The position numbers and the translations under genes are program-made. The notes beneath the pieces are model-generated. The model ran no database searches. It was not told the DNA's origin and saw only the letters and a program-made list of their open reading frames with translations. From a virus, in IMG/VR virus record IMGVR_UViG_3300006735_000215, positions 1 to 25,676 of that record: a DNA stretch of 25,676 nt; one strand, 5' to 3'. Positions 3,633-25,005 of the stretch are shown here, in pieces. Each line of letters starts with the position of its first letter. The stretch's first letter is position 1.

Positions 3633-4028
3633 ATGATAGCTGAATCGGTTATAGGTGTAGCAGGTAAAATCTTAGACAAATTTGTAGAAGATAAAGACCT
3701 AAAAACAAAAATAGAAGGAGAGTTAAGAAAACAAACTCTTGCTATTTCTCAAGCACAAGCTAAAGCAAATGTAGAACAAGCAAAACATCCATCACTTTTT
3801 GTAAGTGGAGCTAGACCTGCTATTATGTGGGTATGTTGTTTGGGTATTGCATGGCAATATTTTATTGGTCCAATACTTACTTGGATCTTTGCTATTTGGA
3901 TGCCAGAAATGAAACCACCACAAATAGAATTAGAAGGATTACTAGGACTTACTATGTCCTTGCTCGGTCTTGGAGCAATGAGGTCATATGAGAAGACAAA
4001 AGGTGTTGCTAGAGATAATATGAAATGA
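3633..4028 (+). CDS. Holin, GTA 3TM-type
   Basis: The protein has 131 residues. An N-terminal amphipathic part with a charged coiled region (residues 10-55) is followed by SGARPAIMW and hydrophobic spans at about 63-81, 78-90 and 101-116. This fits the 'holin of three TMs' family known from gene transfer agents and many alphaproteobacterial phages, including the conserved R-P before the first span. It would form holes in the inner membrane to release the lysozyme encoded next. The AGGAG-like sequence ATAGGAGTG lies at 3610-3618 upstream. Its end overlaps the lysozyme start (ATGAAATGA), indicating coupling. Confidence 0.75.
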   Translation: MIAESVIGVAGKILDKFVEDKDLKTKIEGELRKQTLAISQAQAKANVEQAKHPSLFVSGARPAIMWVCCLGIAWQYFIGPILTWIFAIWMPEMKPPQIELEGLLGLTMSLLGLGAMRSYEKTKGVARDNMK

Positions 4029-4456
4029 CTTATGAAGAATTAAAAGACAGAATTAAATTACATGAAGGTTTTAGAAACTATGTGTATTTGGATTCATTAG
4101 GTAAAAGAACTGTTGGTTATGGTCATTTATGTAGAGATGATGAAGAATGGGATATAAAAAAAACATATAGTCAAGAAGAATTAGATTTGTGTTTTGAAAA
4201 TGATTTTAGTCATGCAGTAAACAATGCTTCTGATTTAATTGGAAATTTAAAATTAAAACCAGAAGCTAAAGAAGTTATTATAGAAATGGTATTTCAATTA
4301 GGTAAAACAGGAGTAAGTAAGTTTAAAAAAATGTGGACAGCATTTGGTAACTACGATTACAACGAAGCAGCTAATCAAATGTTAGATTCTAAATGGGCAA
4401 AACAAACTCCTGAAAGAGCTAAAGATTTGTCTGATGTTATTAAAAATTTATCCTAA
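4025..4456 (+). CDS. Endolysin, T4-type lysozyme (GH24)
   Basis: This 143-residue muramidase cleaves the glycan backbone of peptidoglycan at lysis. The catalytic triad of T4 lysozyme (Glu11, Asp20, Thr26) is matched exactly in spacing by Glu14 (KLHEGF), Asp23 (VYLDSLG) and Thr29 (KRTVGYGH). The length is near the family norm of 150-165 residues. No N-terminal signal or anchor is visible, so release should depend on the holin encoded immediately upstream, with which it overlaps by four bases. The last nine bases overlap the convergent gene on the minus strand; no clear terminator separates the two operons. Confidence 0.92.
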   Translation: MTYEELKDRIKLHEGFRNYVYLDSLGKRTVGYGHLCRDDEEWDIKKTYSQEELDLCFENDFSHAVNNASDLIGNLKLKPEAKEVIIEMVFQLGKTGVSKFKKMWTAFGNYDYNEAANQMLDSKWAKQTPERAKDLSDVIKNLS

Positions 4457-4921
4457 TATATAATTAATTTCTAATACTAATAAAATAAATCCGATAACAA
4501 TTGCTGTTATTATAATCATTATTTTTTTTGCTTCTTCTTTTTCTTTTATTTGTTGTTGTATGCGTTTTTTTTGCAATGCTCTTTGATGAGCTATTTCTTT
4601 TTGTAAATCCTCCCATTGTTGCAATCCATTGTGAGCATACAATAAAAAAACTTCTCTTAATTCTTCTTTCATTTGTTTTAATTCTTGTTTGCGTAAATGA
4701 GCAGCAATAGCATTTTGCTCTACACTAGAAAATTTACCAAACAATTTACCTGTTAATGTTCTGCCTTTTTGACTTGCAGCTACATCCATATGTGATTCTG
4801 CATTTGCCCATTTCATTATTGGACTAGCAAGATCGTGCAATCCTTTACCTACTTTTATACCTTGTTGAATTAATCCTGTTGCCGATTTAATTGCAGCAAA
4901 TGCTGTTAAAGGATCAATCAT
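4448..4921 (-). CDS. Coiled-coil protein with C-terminal membrane anchor, unknown
   Basis: This is a 157-residue protein and the last gene of the late operon. Residues 1-40 are weakly hydrophobic with glycine-rich helices (LIQQGIKVGKGLHDLASPIM), 65-133 form a highly charged glutamine/lysine/glutamate-rich helix likely to be a coiled coil, and 134-156 are a membrane span near the C-terminus. The layout (long coiled coil plus terminal anchor, next to other small membrane proteins and opposite the lysis genes) would suit a virion-associated or lysis-accessory protein, but I do not recognise the family. Its ATG overlaps the stop of the upstream gene. Confidence 0.65.
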   Translation of the reverse strand: MIDPLTAFAAIKSATGLIQQGIKVGKGLHDLASPIMKWANAESHMDVAASQKGRTLTGKLFGKFSSVEQNAIAAHLRKQELKQMKEELREVFLLYAHNGLQQWEDLQKEIAHQRALQKKRIQQQIKEKEEAKKIMIIITAIVIGFILLVLEINYILG

Positions 4922-5187
4922 GACTTTTTGTTTCTGTTAGCAAAATTTCTTGCTGCAGCTACACTCCCAAAACCCCATTTTTTTAATGCTAATGCTTTAC
5001 GAGTTGGTCTACCTTTTTCATCTTTCATTGGACCTTTCATTCCTGCAAATCGTGCTGCAAAACTAACTCGTCTTGGATTAGTTCCTTTTTTTACAGGAGG
5101 TTTTAAATTAGCACCTTCTTTTCTTTTAAAGTATTTTCTTCCTGCTTCTGTTAAACCACCCGTAGGACTTTTATGTTTTTTTCGCAT
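4918..5187 (-). CDS. Small basic phage protein, DUF6321-like
   Basis: This 89-residue, strongly basic protein has conserved-looking blocks: SPTGGLTEAGRKYF (7-20), GANLKPPV (25-32), NPRRVSFAARFAGMKGPM (37-54) and GRPTRKALALKKWGF (59-73). These blocks recall a family of uncharacterised marine phage proteins (DUF6321, by memory). The many Arg/Lys and invariant-looking Arg-Arg-x-Ser-Phe suggest nucleic-acid or capsid-interior binding, but no function is known. The ATG sits in TAATG with the upstream stop, with AAGGTG as a likely ribosome-binding site. Confidence 0.7.
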   Translation of the reverse strand: MRKKHKSPTGGLTEAGRKYFKRKEGANLKPPVKKGTNPRRVSFAARFAGMKGPMKDEKGRPTRKALALKKWGFGSVAAARNFANRNKKS

Positions 5188-20417: not shown

Positions 20418-22081
20418 TATTCAATAAATCCTTCTTCTCTTGCCCTATCTTCTGCTTTTTCAAAACCTTCTTGTGTTTCTGGATTGCCCATTTCTTTCAT
20501 TGCTTTACTTTGTGTTAGTGCCATTTCTGCTTGTTGTTGTTGTATCATCATTTGTTGTTGTGCTTGTTGTTGCATCATTCTTTGTTGTCTTATTTCTCCA
20601 ACTTCATCAACCCCTCGCATAATTGTTTTTGGTACTCCTAATAATTTACTTCTCATTCTAACTGCTTCATCATGATTTATATTATCCATAATTGTAGGAT
20701 CTATCTGTCCGACTTGCATAGCCAGTTGATACAATCTATCTATAGCAACCGATTCTTCCATTCTTTGTGATCGTGCTAATGGTCCTACATATTCTACATC
20801 TACTTTTCTACCTTCAATAATTTCTGGTGCAGGTAAAAATGCATTGTTTCTTAACATAATACCAAACACTCTTTCAATTAATGGATTTAAAAATTCACTT
20901 TGAAATCTACCTAATGTTGGTCCAAGCAATCTTTGCATCAATTCATATCGGACTTGCACTTCTGTTGCTGTCATTTGTGGACCTTGTTGTAATTGTAACT
21001 GATCTGAATAATATGCTTGTCGTATTGCAGTTCTTAATTGGTTTTCTTTCATATCTGTTATTTGCCAGTTTGTGCCTATTTGTAAAGGTTTTACAGATCC
21101 ATCACTTCTAACAACAGTTAAACCACCTGGAGTTACTCTAACTCTACCTATTACTCCATCATCTGTTACAAGTAATGGTGGGTCAATTGCTTTTGCCCAT
21201 GCCTTTAATCCTATTTCTACTGCTTTGTTTAATGTTTTAATATCTGGCAATGCATTGTAACTTGGACTTCTTCCAAATACTTCTCCTGTTGCTTTTGACC
21301 ATCTTGGCACTAAATATGGAAACTCATTATAACCACCTGTTCTTACAACCATTTGGTCATCTTCACAAACATGACAAGAATGAAAAGGTAGCTTTGTTCC
21401 TTTTTCTCCTGTACCTCTTTCATAATCTTCTGTGGGCTCTACTGCATGAATAAAGAAAAATTCTTTATCTGGTTTTTTTTCAACAGCTTCTAATACCTTC
21501 TCTCCAAGATTATCTTCTCCGAACTCTTGGATTGCTTGTCGTGCTGTTAATTTATACCTTCTATATAAAGTGTCTACTTTACCATTAATGCTTTCTCTAA
21601 TATAAAACTCTGAAATATGTAAGGTATTAAAATGTATAGCATCTATATCAAACCCTTTTTTACCTTCTTCTACAAATATTGCTCCAGTACCTATAGAACA
21701 TAAATCAAGATATAATTCATGGACTTCTGTGTTAAAATTGGTTTCGTTAAACAAATCATACATTTTTTGTGCAGAATCTTCTAACCATAACTGCACATCT
21801 CTATCTCTGTTAAGTGAATCTTCTCTTAATTTTAAATGAAACCATTGTAAGGATGGTGAGGTAAGTGTGCCATGTAAACTTGCAGCCAATAAATTATTAG
21901 CTGTAATTGCTGTAGAATCAAATAATACTTCGGTTCGTGCTTCACCTTGAGATCGCACAAATGTTATATCTGCTTTTCTTGGCATTACATAATCTAAAAT
22001 AGTTTGCCAATGATCTTCCCATGTTTGCCTTTCGCCTTCCATGGTAGACATTCTTTTTTTTATGTAATTATAATTTGCCAT
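20417..22081 (-). CDS. Portal protein (T7 gp8-like head-tail connector)
   Basis: This 554-residue protein forms the dodecameric portal through which DNA is packaged and ejected. Family landmarks are RQTWEDHWQTILDYVMPRK at 18-36, DSTAITANNLLAASLHGTLT at 55-74 and PSYNALPDIKTLNKAVEIGL near 275, as in head-to-tail connecting proteins of T7-like phages (about 500-560 residues). The C-terminus carries a Gln/Met-rich stretch (RMMQQQAQQQMMIQQQQ) before an acidic tail. It overlaps the upstream small gene by TAATG. Confidence 0.92.
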   Translation of the reverse strand: MANYNYIKKRMSTMEGERQTWEDHWQTILDYVMPRKADITFVRSQGEARTEVLFDSTAITANNLLAASLHGTLTSPSLQWFHLKLREDSLNRDRDVQLWLEDSAQKMYDLFNETNFNTEVHELYLDLCSIGTGAIFVEEGKKGFDIDAIHFNTLHISEFYIRESINGKVDTLYRRYKLTARQAIQEFGEDNLGEKVLEAVEKKPDKEFFFIHAVEPTEDYERGTGEKGTKLPFHSCHVCEDDQMVVRTGGYNEFPYLVPRWSKATGEVFGRSPSYNALPDIKTLNKAVEIGLKAWAKAIDPPLLVTDDGVIGRVRVTPGGLTVVRSDGSVKPLQIGTNWQITDMKENQLRTAIRQAYYSDQLQLQQGPQMTATEVQVRYELMQRLLGPTLGRFQSEFLNPLIERVFGIMLRNNAFLPAPEIIEGRKVDVEYVGPLARSQRMEESVAIDRLYQLAMQVGQIDPTIMDNINHDEAVRMRSKLLGVPKTIMRGVDEVGEIRQQRMMQQQAQQQMMIQQQQAEMALTQSKAMKEMGNPETQEGFEKAEDRAREEGFIE

Positions 22082-22284
22082 TAACCACCAAGTATTGTTT
22101 TAGAAGTTGGTGCATCATCTGTTACACCTTGACCACCTGTAAGTAATGTACCCATCCTACCTTGACTTTTTGTTCTTACCATTGCTTGTCTTTCTGCTTC
22201 TAGTTTTGCTTCTGACTCGGCAACTTTATCATCTACTACTGGATCAGTAGGGGGTGGCATTTGTGGCATTGCTTTACCTCCCAT
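22081..22284 (-). CDS. Small protein with C-terminal TSKTILGG tag
   Basis: This 67-residue protein lies directly upstream of the portal gene. It has a Pro-rich start (MPQMPPPTDP), a helix of about 25 charged residues and the tail GTLLTGGQGVTDDAPTSKTI-LGG. Short proteins with this tail are frequent just before portal genes in podoviruses; no function is assigned. The same ending, TS-x-TILG, recurs in the gene at 22725-22943, on the other side of the acetyltransferase. AAAGGAGAATATT before the ATG is a strong ribosome-binding site, so a new translation block begins here. Confidence 0.7.
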   Translation of the reverse strand: MGGKAMPQMPPPTDPVVDDKVAESEAKLEAERQAMVRTKSQGRMGTLLTGGQGVTDDAPTSKTILGG

Positions 22285-22295
22285 AATATTCTCCT

Positions 22296-22724
22296 TTATA
22301 TATATTTACATTCATCTCTTAATAACCCATATACTATACCATCAAAGTATTGCATACCTTTTTTTATAACTTTTCTAATTGTGCCTTCTTTTACAAACCC
22401 TGCTGACTCAATTAATTTTTTACATCTTTCATTTTCTGGTGTTGTCATAGCTGTTATCCTAACACACTTACACTTAATAAAACAATACTCAAATACTTCT
22501 TTTGCAAATGACCTTCTCATAGCTTTCGGATCATCTAATGCAAGATGCATCCAAATGTTATGTCCGTCATAATGTGAAAAGATTGCTCCTCCTATTATTT
22601 TATTTTCATCTAGGTATGCAATAAACGAAAACCCATCATTTAAACTATGATGAATATTTGCTCGTGGACTTACAAAATCTAAAACTTGTTTTCTTAATTT
22701 ATTGTCAGATGAAGAAGTAATCAT
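22296..22724 (-). CDS. GNAT-family N-acetyltransferase
   Basis: This is a 142-residue protein with the GNAT order of elements: a strand pair with KIIGGAIFSHYDGHNIWMHL (about 42-61), a helix (RRSFAKEVFEYCF, 70-82) following the CoA-binding region, then RITAMTTPENERCKKLIESA (89-108) and GFVKEGTIRK (109-118), the last typical of RimJ/RimL-like members (N-x-x-x-x-x-x-E-x-x-G-F-x-x-E-G). The usual R/Q-x-x-G-x-G/A pyrophosphate loop appears degenerate (DDPKAMRRSF). The substrate is unknown; phage GNATs occur beside the portal and terminase genes in marine podoviruses. It starts directly after the TAG of the Pro-rich gene. Confidence 0.75.
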   Translation of the reverse strand: MITSSSDNKLRKQVLDFVSPRANIHHSLNDGFSFIAYLDENKIIGGAIFSHYDGHNIWMHLALDDPKAMRRSFAKEVFEYCFIKCKCVRITAMTTPENERCKKLIESAGFVKEGTIRKVIKKGMQYFDGIVYGLLRDECKYI

Positions 22725-22943
22725 CTAACTACCTAAAATAGTTCTGCTCGTTCCTGATTCTTCCATTTGACTCATTACTGATCCTTGACCATATCCTGCT
22801 CCTCCTAATTTACCTGCAGCTTTTCTTCTTTTTGTTTCTTTTTGAGCTTCGGTTTCTTTTGGCTCTGCTTTTGGTGCAGGTGGTGGTGGTGGAGGTGGTG
22901 CTTTTGGTTTAGGTGGTGAAAACACTCGTGCTACAAATCCCAT
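22725..22943 (-). CDS. Proline-rich small protein with C-terminal TSRTILGS tag
   Basis: This 72-residue protein has a hydrophobic start (MGFVARVF), a run of prolines (residues 10-23), a charged Lys/Glu helix (27-45) and a Gly-rich tail ending GTSRTILGS. The tail is nearly the same as that of the protein at 22081-22284 (TSKTILGG), so the two may be paralogues or share a binding partner such as the portal or capsid. Its ATG overlaps the stop of the tiny gene upstream (TAATG). Confidence 0.65.
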   Translation of the reverse strand: MGFVARVFSPPKPKAPPPPPPPAPKAEPKETEAQKETKRRKAAGKLGGAGYGQGSVMSQMEESGTSRTILGS

Positions 22944-23086
22944 TATGCTTTCCTTTTCTTTTTTTTAGGAAACCCTGCTTTCATATTTGCATATGCTTTA
23001 GGGGTAATAGTTGATTTTTTTTTTGAACTAGATATTCCTAATTTTTTTCTTCTATTAATATTTGCATACAATCCAGGTTTTGCCAT
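22943..23086 (-). CDS. Tiny lysine-rich protein (47 aa)
   Basis: This ORF has ATG at 23086 and TAA at 22943-22945. The protein starts MAKPGLYANINRRKKLG and repeats the idea later (TPKAYANMKAGF), ending in a basic run (PKKKKRKA). The opening K-x-G-L-Y-A-N-I resembles tiny proteins common between terminase and portal in marine phages. It is one of four such genes in a row, each linked by overlapping or near-overlapping stop and start codons; here the stop overlaps the start of the Pro-rich gene. Function unknown. Confidence 0.65.
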   Translation of the reverse strand: MAKPGLYANINRRKKLGISSSKKKSTITPKAYANMKAGFPKKKKRKA

Positions 23087-23087
23087 A

Positions 23088-23201
23088 TTATGCTCTCTTT
23101 CTTTTTTTTAATTTTTTAAAATCTGCACCAGTAATTTTATTACGAGGAGATGCAGTTCTTGCAATTTTCATTTGTTTTGCAGATAACTTTTTTCCAGGCA
23201 T
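23088..23201 (-). CDS. Tiny lysine-rich protein (37 aa)
   Basis: This ORF has ATG at 23201 and TAA at 23088-23090. The sequence MPGKKLSAKQMKIARTAS, then PRNKITGADFKKLKK, ending RKRA, is organised like a small folded helix-turn-helix hairpin with a basic tail rather than random low complexity. The ATG overlaps the stop of the preceding gene (TAATG), and the next ATG follows its stop after one base. Similar short proteins occur at this place in other marine phages (from memory). Function unknown. Confidence 0.65.
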   Translation of the reverse strand: MPGKKLSAKQMKIARTASPRNKITGADFKKLKKRKRA

Positions 23202-23308
23202 TATTTCTTTCCTTTCAACATTTTTTCTAATGTTGCAGCTTGTGCTGCATGAGATTTAGATGCTTTTTTTAATCCAGATATTACTTTTCGTACTGTTGTT
23301 TTGTTCAT
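23201..23308 (-). CDS. Tiny lysine-rich protein (35 aa)
   Basis: This ORF has ATG at 23308 and TAA at 23201-23203. The protein begins MNKTTVRKVISGLKKASK, continues with HAAQAATLEKML and ends KGKK. It reads as one amphipathic helix with regularly placed lysines, a possible DNA- or membrane-binding peptide. Its ATG overlaps the TGA of the gene upstream (ATGA) and its stop overlaps the ATG downstream, so it should be translated only as part of the chain. Confidence 0.65.
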   Translation of the reverse strand: MNKTTVRKVISGLKKASKSHAAQAATLEKMLKGKK

Positions 23309-23394
23309 TTCTTTTTCTTCATTGGTTTTTTCATTTTCATTTTTTTAGCAGGTCTACCTACTTTTGATCCGTATGTTCCTTTACCCATTGGCAT
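23305..23394 (-). CDS. Tiny lysine-rich protein (29 aa)
   Basis: This ORF has ATG at 23394 and TGA at 23305-23307. It begins MPMGKGTYGSKVGRPAKK; its second half is almost only Lys, Met and Pro. The start has AGGAGA six bases upstream, making this the entry point for ribosomes into the chain of tiny genes, and it follows the terminase stop by 13 bases. K-G-T-Y-G-S-K-x-G-R-P is a recurrent motif in tiny proteins of marine phages. Function unknown. Confidence 0.65.
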   Translation of the reverse strand: MPMGKGTYGSKVGRPAKKMKMKKPMKKKK

Positions 23395-23407
23395 AATTAC
23401 TCTCCTT

Positions 23408-24820
23408 TTAAAATAAGTTAAATTCAGAGTCAGATTCTATTTGCATAGGTTCAGTATTTCGCACCCTTGCTTTTCGTAATGACATAACTGCATAACGCAA
23501 TGCAGAAATTACATCATCATTCATAGGAACTATTTTACCTTCTTTTCTATGATACATTCTTAACTCCTCCATGAGCTTACCTTGATTTTCAAAAATTTTC
23601 AATCTTTTTGTTTGAAATCGTGTAAGCATCTCCATTACCCCTGCTTCTACACTATTACCCCCACTTCCTTCTTTCATTCCTGTTTGGGGTGGATTAGTAA
23701 AATGTTCTCGTAATAAATTAACTCCTTCTTCTCTATATTGCACAGCTAGACTTTTACCACTTCCTTTATCTGCTTGTCTGCCATCCATAGGATATACAAC
23801 TGGAATCCAAAATCCTCTGGACTTTATTGCTGATGCATGAACAGGTACAGTTTCTTGTCGCATAGCATAACTATCATACACATATACAATATCACTATCT
23901 CTATCCCATGCCACCCATACACACGCAGTTGGATGATCCCACCCAAAATCTATAGCACATATGCGTGGAAAATAATCTGGTATTTCAAAATGCTCACATA
24001 CAATATCATCTTCTGCAATCGGAAAAACAAGACCAGACCCCAATTGTGGTATTCCCATCTCTCTCATTTTTCTTTCATGGGGTGGTAATGCTGAAAGTAT
24101 TTGATTCCGAATATCTTTTGTCATATGAGGTGCATCATCCCATGTTGCTTGTATTAACTCTTGACCTGTTTTTAAATTATTAACAAACTGTGCTACTGTT
24201 TCTGTCATGCCTTGCTCTGGAGTAAAAGTCATATAAACAATTCCTCCTTTATCAGCAGTACGAGTTAATGCTTGAGAGTAAATACTTTGTGGGGGTTCTT
24301 CATCTAACCAAATAACATCTAAGGATTCACCCATCCATTTTTCTTTACCCATTTCATATGCCTTAAAACCAATACGAGAATATCCACCACTTGTATGTTT
24401 TATGACTACCGAGTTAAACGCATTAGGCACTCCAGGTTTTCTTACAGTTTCTCCAATGAGTTTTAAAGGAATACTTCCCATACCTTTTGCACTCGGATCA
24501 TCTGGTTGTCCACATAATTCTTTTTGACATACATCTCGTGTGGTTTCATTTGATACTCCTCCCACCCAACATCTAACAGGTCTATAAAATTTTTTACCTG
24601 TCCACCATTCTGGATAGAGTCCTGTACAATGATATGCCATTTCCATTGCACCACTAAATGATTTACCCACCCTATTTCCTGCCATTAATAATCGTTGGGA
24701 TGCTAAACTTCCATGAAATTTTTTTTGATACTCATAAGGATTGTAACTATTCATTAAATTTGTTTTTTGACGAAACTCTAATTCTTTAGCAATCTCAACT
24801 GCTCGTGCTAAATTGCTCAT
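23408..24820 (-). CDS. Terminase large subunit
   Basis: This 470-residue packaging motor has both domains. The ATPase part carries a Walker A-type loop GNRVGKS (48-54), Walker B VIWLDEE (169-175) and the coupling motif TFTP (198-201). The nuclease part begins with AIDFGWDHPTA (Asp291 likely metal ligand) and ends with NDDVISALRYA near 440, where a further Asp belongs to the RNase H-like site. It cuts concatemers and pumps DNA through the portal. Its small-subunit partner lies on the other strand at 3239-3631. Its ATG overlaps the stop of the upstream gene (TAATG). Confidence 0.93.
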   Translation of the reverse strand: MSNLARAVEIAKELEFRQKTNLMNSYNPYEYQKKFHGSLASQRLLMAGNRVGKSFSGAMEMAYHCTGLYPEWWTGKKFYRPVRCWVGGVSNETTRDVCQKELCGQPDDPSAKGMGSIPLKLIGETVRKPGVPNAFNSVVIKHTSGGYSRIGFKAYEMGKEKWMGESLDVIWLDEEPPQSIYSQALTRTADKGGIVYMTFTPEQGMTETVAQFVNNLKTGQELIQATWDDAPHMTKDIRNQILSALPPHERKMREMGIPQLGSGLVFPIAEDDIVCEHFEIPDYFPRICAIDFGWDHPTACVWVAWDRDSDIVYVYDSYAMRQETVPVHASAIKSRGFWIPVVYPMDGRQADKGSGKSLAVQYREEGVNLLREHFTNPPQTGMKEGSGGNSVEAGVMEMLTRFQTKRLKIFENQGKLMEELRMYHRKEGKIVPMNDDVISALRYAVMSLRKARVRNTEPMQIESDSEFNLF

Positions 24821-25005
24821 TACTTTTTAGATATATGATTAAAGAGTTCATCTACTAAATCACTTTTATGAAATCGTCTATCTAATTCAAGACCATACTT
24901 CCGACCCAAAGTTTCTAATTCTTTTTTTGTCATAATTTGTAAATGCGTTCTTTTTAAAATTTTTTTTGGTTTTGGTTTAAATAAGTTTTTAATAAAATTT
25001 AACAT
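24820..25005 (-). CDS. Small basic protein upstream of terminase
   Basis: This 61-residue protein has an amphipathic basic start (MLNFIKNLFKPKPKKILK) followed by a helix-turn-helix-like part, MTKKELETLGRKYGLELDRR and KSDLVDELFNHI, which resembles SAP/Rho-N-type helical hairpins (K-x-E-L-x-x-x-G, then K-x-x-L-V-x-x-L). DNA binding is plausible. AAAGGAGA before the ATG gives a strong start, and the stop overlaps the terminase ATG, so it probably sets terminase translation. Confidence 0.65.
   Translation of the reverse strand: MLNFIKNLFKPKPKKILKRTHLQIMTKKELETLGRKYGLELDRRFHKSDLVDELFNHISKK

Follow-up and report, generated by a model that had tools for sequence, protein, structure and literature searches.

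Genomic Context of the Lysine-Rich Cassette

The window analyzed here is an entire IMG/VR virus record of 25,676 bases with a GC content of 32%. Its minus strand carries, in order, a Holliday-junction-resolvase-like gene and the genes for the terminase, the portal (Head-tail_con, E = 1.5e-141), a scaffold-like protein, the major head protein, tail proteins, and a DUF6321 protein, and holin and lysozyme-like genes are found on the plus strand at 3633–4456. The nearest isolate in the phage collection is the Pelagibacter phage EXVC032P Baldr, with a terminase identity of 80%. As anticipated in the original prediction, the terminase is followed by a head-to-tail chain of four tiny basic ORFs of 29, 35, 37, and 47 residues on the minus strand, designated F1–F4. 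The chain does lie between the terminase and the portal, as was also claimed, but a 72-residue ORF (F5), a GNAT gene, and a 67-residue ORF intervene before the portal is reached. The features of the region and the DUF6321 gene are as follows.

23408..24820, minus strand: terminase large subunit, the 5′ boundary of the cassette (PF03237, E = 2e-26; PF17289, E = 2e-18)
23402..23409, minus strand: strong Shine-Dalgarno stretch AAAAGGAG ahead of F1, overlapping the terminase stop codon (anti-SD duplex, −8.0 kcal/mol)
23305..23394, minus strand: F1, 29 residues, MPMGKGTYGSKVGRPAKK..., with an AT-hook-like GRP core and a lysine tail (pN/pS 0.19 over 8 distinct alleles)
23201..23308, minus strand: F2, 35 residues, ...KKASKSHAAQA..., of the SHAxQA family (pN/pS 0.30)
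23088..23201, minus strand: F3, 37 residues, KQMKIARTASPRNKITGADFKKL, a predicted helix-loop-helix (AlphaFold2; pN/pS 0.37)
22943..23086, minus strand: F4, 47 residues, GLYANINRRKK...AYANMKAGFPKKKK, with two short predicted helices (phrog_25774, E = 3.4e-22)
22725..22943, minus strand: F5, 72 residues, proline-rich, with the C terminus TSRTILGS, bounding the cassette on its 3′ side and shared with the sister clade
22296–22724: GNAT acetyltransferase gene, downstream of the lysine-rich cassette and F5
4918..5187, minus strand: DUF6321 protein, 89 residues, net charge +23 (PF19846, E = 8.7e-27)

The net charges of F1–F4 are +12, +9, +13, and +16, respectively, whereas the larger genes of the window range from −44 to +11, and acidic residues are nearly absent from all four. 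F5 belongs to a cluster (cluster 0) with 72 members across the window and 80 loci, and has a pN/pS of 0.59. The DUF6321 protein is located at the opposite end of the late-gene block, near the lysis genes. A scan for promoters and terminators yielded hits at or below chance (13 versus 22 and 0 versus 2.6, respectively), a result that is compatible with a single operon but says no more than that. Immediately preceding the terminase, a 61-residue basic ORF (24820–25005, net charge +9) gives a weak match to phrog_8608, a prohead protease inhibitor.

Translation Signals and Coding Potential

The junctions within the chain read ATGA, TAATG, and TAATATG, exactly as first described. The accompanying proposal, that the four ORFs start from a single good ribosome-binding site, does not hold. 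The anti-SD energies are −8.0, −0.3, −4.9, and −3.4 kcal/mol for F1–F4 and −4.9 kcal/mol for the next gene, such that sites of their own are present at F3, F4, and the next gene and clearly lacking only at F2, which depends on coupling; these energies exclude single-site coupling as a distinctive feature. The lysine-coding ends of the ORFs provide part of the purine stretches of these sites. Equal coupled production, which had been proposed for the peptides, is less necessary because local ribosome-binding sites exist. Coupling also extends past the four, with a TAATG junction between F4 and F5, abutting F5 and GNAT genes, and one base shared by the 67-residue ORF and the portal. Among the 86 junctions counted in the window plus 23 relatives, 59 are overlaps of −4 or −1; overlapping starts are thus the rule in this operon and nothing special to the four. 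Nor do all four ORFs fall below gene-calling limits, as had been thought: F2–F4 span 108–144 nucleotides including the stop codon, and homologues of F4 are annotated in isolates. The default minimum gene length of Prodigal is 90 nucleotides.

ORFs of this kind could in principle arise by chance in AT-rich DNA, with the lysines following from poly-A-rich sequence; AAA is indeed the dominant lysine codon, and the genome has a GC content of only 32%. Among random short ORFs, only 2% reach 0.25 net charge per residue. However, 2 Mb of random sequence generated under a Markov-1 model with the dinucleotide composition of the window did not contain a single run of four coupled ORFs 25–60 residues long. 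The reading frames are kept in relatives, the conservation that had been put forward as a check, with pN/pS values of 0.19 for F1, 0.30 for F2, 0.37 for F3, and 0.25 for F4, compared with 0.15 for the terminase. These values, summed over pairs of distinct alleles from relatives with terminases 86–100% identical, are indications of constraint rather than precise rates, given small counts, non-independent pairs, and pS near saturation. Hundreds of relatives in other contigs, moreover, keep residues other than lysine, including GLYANIN, PRNKITGADF, and GTYGS..GRP. A chance origin, which is ruled out by pN/pS and the random-sequence null, is left with a vanishingly small probability, and on the evidence of these alignments F1–F4 are real genes under purifying selection.

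The Four Families

The GRP core of F1 is present in all 33 of its GTYG...GRP relatives, with the canonical RGRP in nine and KGRP in three. Similar to AT-hook peptides, these relatives keep GTYG and the invariant GRP core in basic surroundings. In contrast to such peptides, F1 of the window reads KVGRP rather than the canonical (K/R)GRP, and the Pfam AT-hook model is unmatched: searches with two F1 relatives returned no family at E values up to 10. Window F1 has no significant match in Pfam (none at E values up to 1), PHROG, or NCBIfam. F2, with a hydrophobic moment of 0.54, is likely to form an amphipathic helix.

The AlphaFold2 model of F3 places helices at residues 8–16 and 25–36 (pLDDT 78, pTM 0.44), and that of F4 has a pLDDT of 81 and a pTM of 0.34; at these low pTM values, how the helices are arranged relative to each other is uncertain in both. 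Over 60 F3 sequences, Gln10, Ala14, Ile23, Thr24, and Asp27 are invariant. At least 388 relatives of F3 are found in viral contigs, compared with four among 84,980 prokaryote genomes. One of these four (L262) may itself be a phage contig because another basic ORF directly follows F3. The predicted helix-loop-helix topology of F3 resembles that of EF-hand and dockerin proteins (PF00404 and PF00036), from which F3 differs in that its loop, ASPRNKITGADF, lacks the acidic calcium ligands except the last. With these ligands missing, a calcium-binding EF-hand is ruled out for F3. Alignment to three mini EF-hand relatives (hhalign, 73%, P = 3e-5; hmmsearch, E = 0.013), which are found beside F4 in L101 and in similar cassettes in L123 and L141, is suggestive of a kinship between the sequences of F3 and the EF-hand.

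F4 is a near full-length member of PHROG 25774, a phage protein of unknown function, with residues 6–44 of 47 aligning to positions 3–41 of the 42 in the profile. Its homologues of 42–48 residues are annotated in isolates (e.g. Syn5 gp59 and HTVC019P gp30), and the family is found in 38 phage records and, by alignment scan, in at least 575 loci of viral contigs. The isolates considered here have F4 alone or with a DUF6321 relative, whereas the window has a run of four. Invariant over 62 F4 sequences are Leu6, Asn9, Asn11, Gly17, Ser19, Ser25, Thr26, Tyr32, Asn34, Met35, Gly38, and Phe39. Residue 20 of window F4 (23027–23029) is a serine, and an arginine occupies this position in the near-identical L002–L004 and in >90% of relatives. 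In L091, L093, L099, L102, L110, and others, F4 occurs as a fusion with an EF-hand/dockerin-like loop; counts for the patterns combining F3 with an EF-hand overlap, as one pattern matches part of the other. Directly after F4 in L101 (4144–4257), in the usual place of F3, lies a basic protein of 37 residues whose EF-hand-like loop, DANKDGKISKVDF, is intact; this mini EF-hand protein matches Dockerin_1 (E = 8.7e-6).

Turnover of the Cassette among Close Relatives

In the 26 closest relatives, the slot between the terminase and the 72-residue proline-rich ORF is occupied by one to six basic ORFs, the combination of which changes as listed below. F10 is DUF5872-like, F12 contains HFKDLS, and F16 contains KVYPSAYAN.

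F1-F2-F3-F4: window, L002–L004, L010, L012, L016, L017, L025
F1-F3-F4: L013, L015
F1-F2-F3-F12-F16-F10: L005, L009, L027
sets with F12 and F4: L006, L008, L026
sets of F1/F2 with F16 and F10: L007, L018–L020
single member of 20–24 residues: L022; L011 and L014 (both with a second GNAT gene)

The net charge of the cassette spans +9 to +87, a range that rules out a conserved total charge as a design rule. F2 and F3 co-occur in 34 of the 38 distinct cassettes having F2, and F1 is accompanied by F2 in 20 of 34, by F3 in 20 of 34, and by F4 in 17 of 34. F2 of the window differs from that of L010, L016, L017, and L025 at four to five of ~23 synonymous sites. These differences are few relative to the terminases, in which 144 of 306 synonymous sites differ between the window and L010, which suggests from sequence divergence that single ORFs may be exchanged.

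In a sister clade that comprises L028–L081 and Baldr, the slot is empty, and an ORF of the 72-residue type as a rule directly follows the terminase. F4 is instead located just before the portal in Baldr, a layout shared by L034, L039, L041, and L044, and beside DUF6321 in G010, G011, and G013; in other records of this clade it was not found.

A Wider Pool of Basic Mini-Proteins

Judged by sequence and gene neighborhood, F1–F4 are members of a shared pool of virus-restricted families of basic mini-proteins that are exchanged among aquatic, mainly marine, phages. Members of these families turn up again in Pelagibacter, Methylophilales, and Synechococcus phages, close to genes for the terminase, portal, capsid, tail, and lysis. 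F4 is placed directly before terL in Syn5 and S-TIP28, between the scaffold and major capsid genes in HTVC019P and HTVC119P, and just before the portal in MEP301 as in Baldr, with a DUF6321 relative in between in MEP301. Relatives of the DUF6321 protein of the window adjoin F4 in HTVC119P, MEP301, S-TIP28, G010, G011, and G013, and by this measure the window protein is another member of the pool. ORFs of the F2 type adjoin F3 in contigs reached only via F3 (L164–L166 and L182–L184), and F1 recurs in L185, L214, and L218, also found through F3. The larger neighbors of F3 are mostly endolysin or tail lysozyme, terminase, and portal genes, with some integrases; those of F4 are mostly tail fiber, portal, major head, holin, and GroES genes. 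Exceptions to late-gene placement are Greip and HTVC034P, in which F4 or F3 lies beside peptidase M15 genes with a convergent DnaA-like gene adjoining. A small basic ORF adjoins F3 at 68 of 73 loci and F4 at 54 of 79, compared with 279 of 984 for large ORFs, a null that is inflated by the cassettes themselves and by chance ORFs, such that the enrichment is rough.

The DUF6321 (PF19846) and DUF5872 (PF19197) proteins are similarly small, very basic, and virus-associated, and they neighbor or replace F1–F4 in related cassettes. They are separate sequence families, however, the models of which F1–F4 do not match. For the alga virus CpV-BQ1, PMC12085832 lists a DUF5872 protein. The F2 and F3 families are known mainly from metagenomic contigs, because searches of annotated phages gave two records for F3 and none for F2-like sequences. 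Small basic phage proteins of unknown function are in themselves ordinary; what is unusual is a constrained and swappable set, three of the four members of which have no significant family model. The F3 and F4 families have hundreds of relatives in viral contigs, yet F1–F3 lack a significant model in the libraries searched. Phage late-operon genes of <50 residues can thus be constrained and exchanged.

Possible Functions of the Peptides

Nucleic acid binding is the most economical reading of F1–F4 because of their charge, few acidic residues, late-gene placement, the F1 core, and the predicted helices, and we consider it probable. The original prediction called the peptides histone-like, which is an analogy only, as known DNA-binding proteins were matched neither in sequence nor in fold. 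Searches of Pfam and NCBIfam gave no significant match for F1–F4, comparison of F3 and F4 with PDB sequences returned chance-level fragments, and Foldseek gave no significant match for either. Literature searches on virion proteomics of F4-bearing phages and on lysine-rich phage proteins yielded nothing usable; engineering of T7-like cyanophages is reported in PMC8776855. DNA binding as such is supported indirectly by the GRP core of F1, the predicted helix-loop-helix of F3, and the scarcity of acidic residues, as read from sequence and models. The lysine-rich tails may be generic.

On balance, we mildly favor a cassette of four accessory late genes drawn from the exchanged pool, the products of which would bind phage nucleic acid around packaging. 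The cassette would be translated, from its own or coupled starts, with the late operon in which it sits between terL and the portal-side genes. Its products would bind nucleic acid, above all the AT-rich DNA of the phage itself, F1 in the minor groove through its AT-hook-like GRP core and F2–F4 through short basic helices. Acting late, the peptides would help to condense, neutralize, or protect the DNA of the phage as it is packaged or beforehand, and could possibly enter the head. The analysis shows that the genes are real, under purifying selection, part of the pool, subject to cassette turnover, and set among late genes; nucleic acid binding is what we infer, and a packaging or virion role only weakly so; a role in the head or in packaging is tentative, falling short of an even chance. 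Of the original prediction, real coding, several distinct basic families, and the late-gene setting are borne out. An essential packaging role is weakened by the empty slot of the sister clade, the charge range of +9 to +87, and the presence of the families in the lysis block elsewhere. Because the cassette is dispensable and its families can also sit by lysis genes, a strict packaging role is disfavored; these features also count against the favored reading as a whole, as do the occurrence of F3 and F4 near DnaA-like genes, the variable cassette charge, and the noncanonical F1 core that the Pfam AT-hook model leaves unmatched.

Basic internal proteins are thought to neutralize head DNA in some phages, and many copies of each peptide could be packaged with the DNA as counter-ions inside the head. 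Very high charge and few acidic residues are in keeping with this, as is the fact that several unrelated lineages have these genes placed amid those for the terminase, portal, scaffold, and capsid, but the peptides are non-essential in close relatives and the cassette charge varies, and we regard it as somewhat unlikely. The internal proteins of T4 and the like are also small, basic, and thought to sit with phage DNA; no similarity of sequence or fold between them and F1–F4 was found. Basic clamps on acidic surfaces of the scaffold, portal, or terminase during head assembly would suit the net charges of the window scaffold (−19), portal (−17), and capsid (−7) and the placement of F4, in HTVC019P and HTVC119P, between the genes for scaffold and capsid; with the slot empty in the sister clade, this is rather improbable.

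Host DNA, RNA polymerase, or a defense protein could also be the target. In anti-defense islands, small accessory genes are typically replaced rapidly and combined in varying ways, and such turnover is seen here. The late setting and the constrained, not diversifying, sequences point the other way and render host takeover or anti-defense improbable, and the takeover of the host nucleoid offered in the original prediction is disfavored in that the families occur mostly among late genes. Little probability, finally, is given to cationic lysis or membrane-active helpers, co-expressed with the endolysin and disturbing the envelope. An endolysin-like gene is often found close to F3 (phrog_7 is matched by 11 of 74 flanking proteins), the window DUF6321 protein is near the lysis genes, and the hydrophobic moment of F2 is high (0.54), but F1, F3, and F4 appear to have no membrane segment because all of their 18-residue stretches have negative mean hydrophobicity, and the window cassette is far from the lysis genes.

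If the preferred reading of DNA binding is correct, a modular set of peptides for handling DNA late in infection would be present in many ocean phages. A bolder and unlikely extension is that marine phages, perhaps with DUF5872-carrying giant algal viruses, share swappable mini-chromatin peptides that coat and condense AT-rich phage DNA and enter the head, in a mixture that is specific to each phage and drawn from the common pool.

The GNAT gene downstream of the cassette is retained even in relatives that lack the cassette, and acetylation of the peptide lysines by GNAT is for this reason only an idea. In L011 and L014, a second GNAT gene is found inside the cassette slot itself. The two small ORFs that flank the first GNAT gene (22725–22943 and 22081–22284) end in a common C-terminal motif, TSRTILGS and TSKTILGG, respectively, which recurs across relatives. 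The second of these ORFs matches phrog_831, and the two may be paralogues that share one partner.
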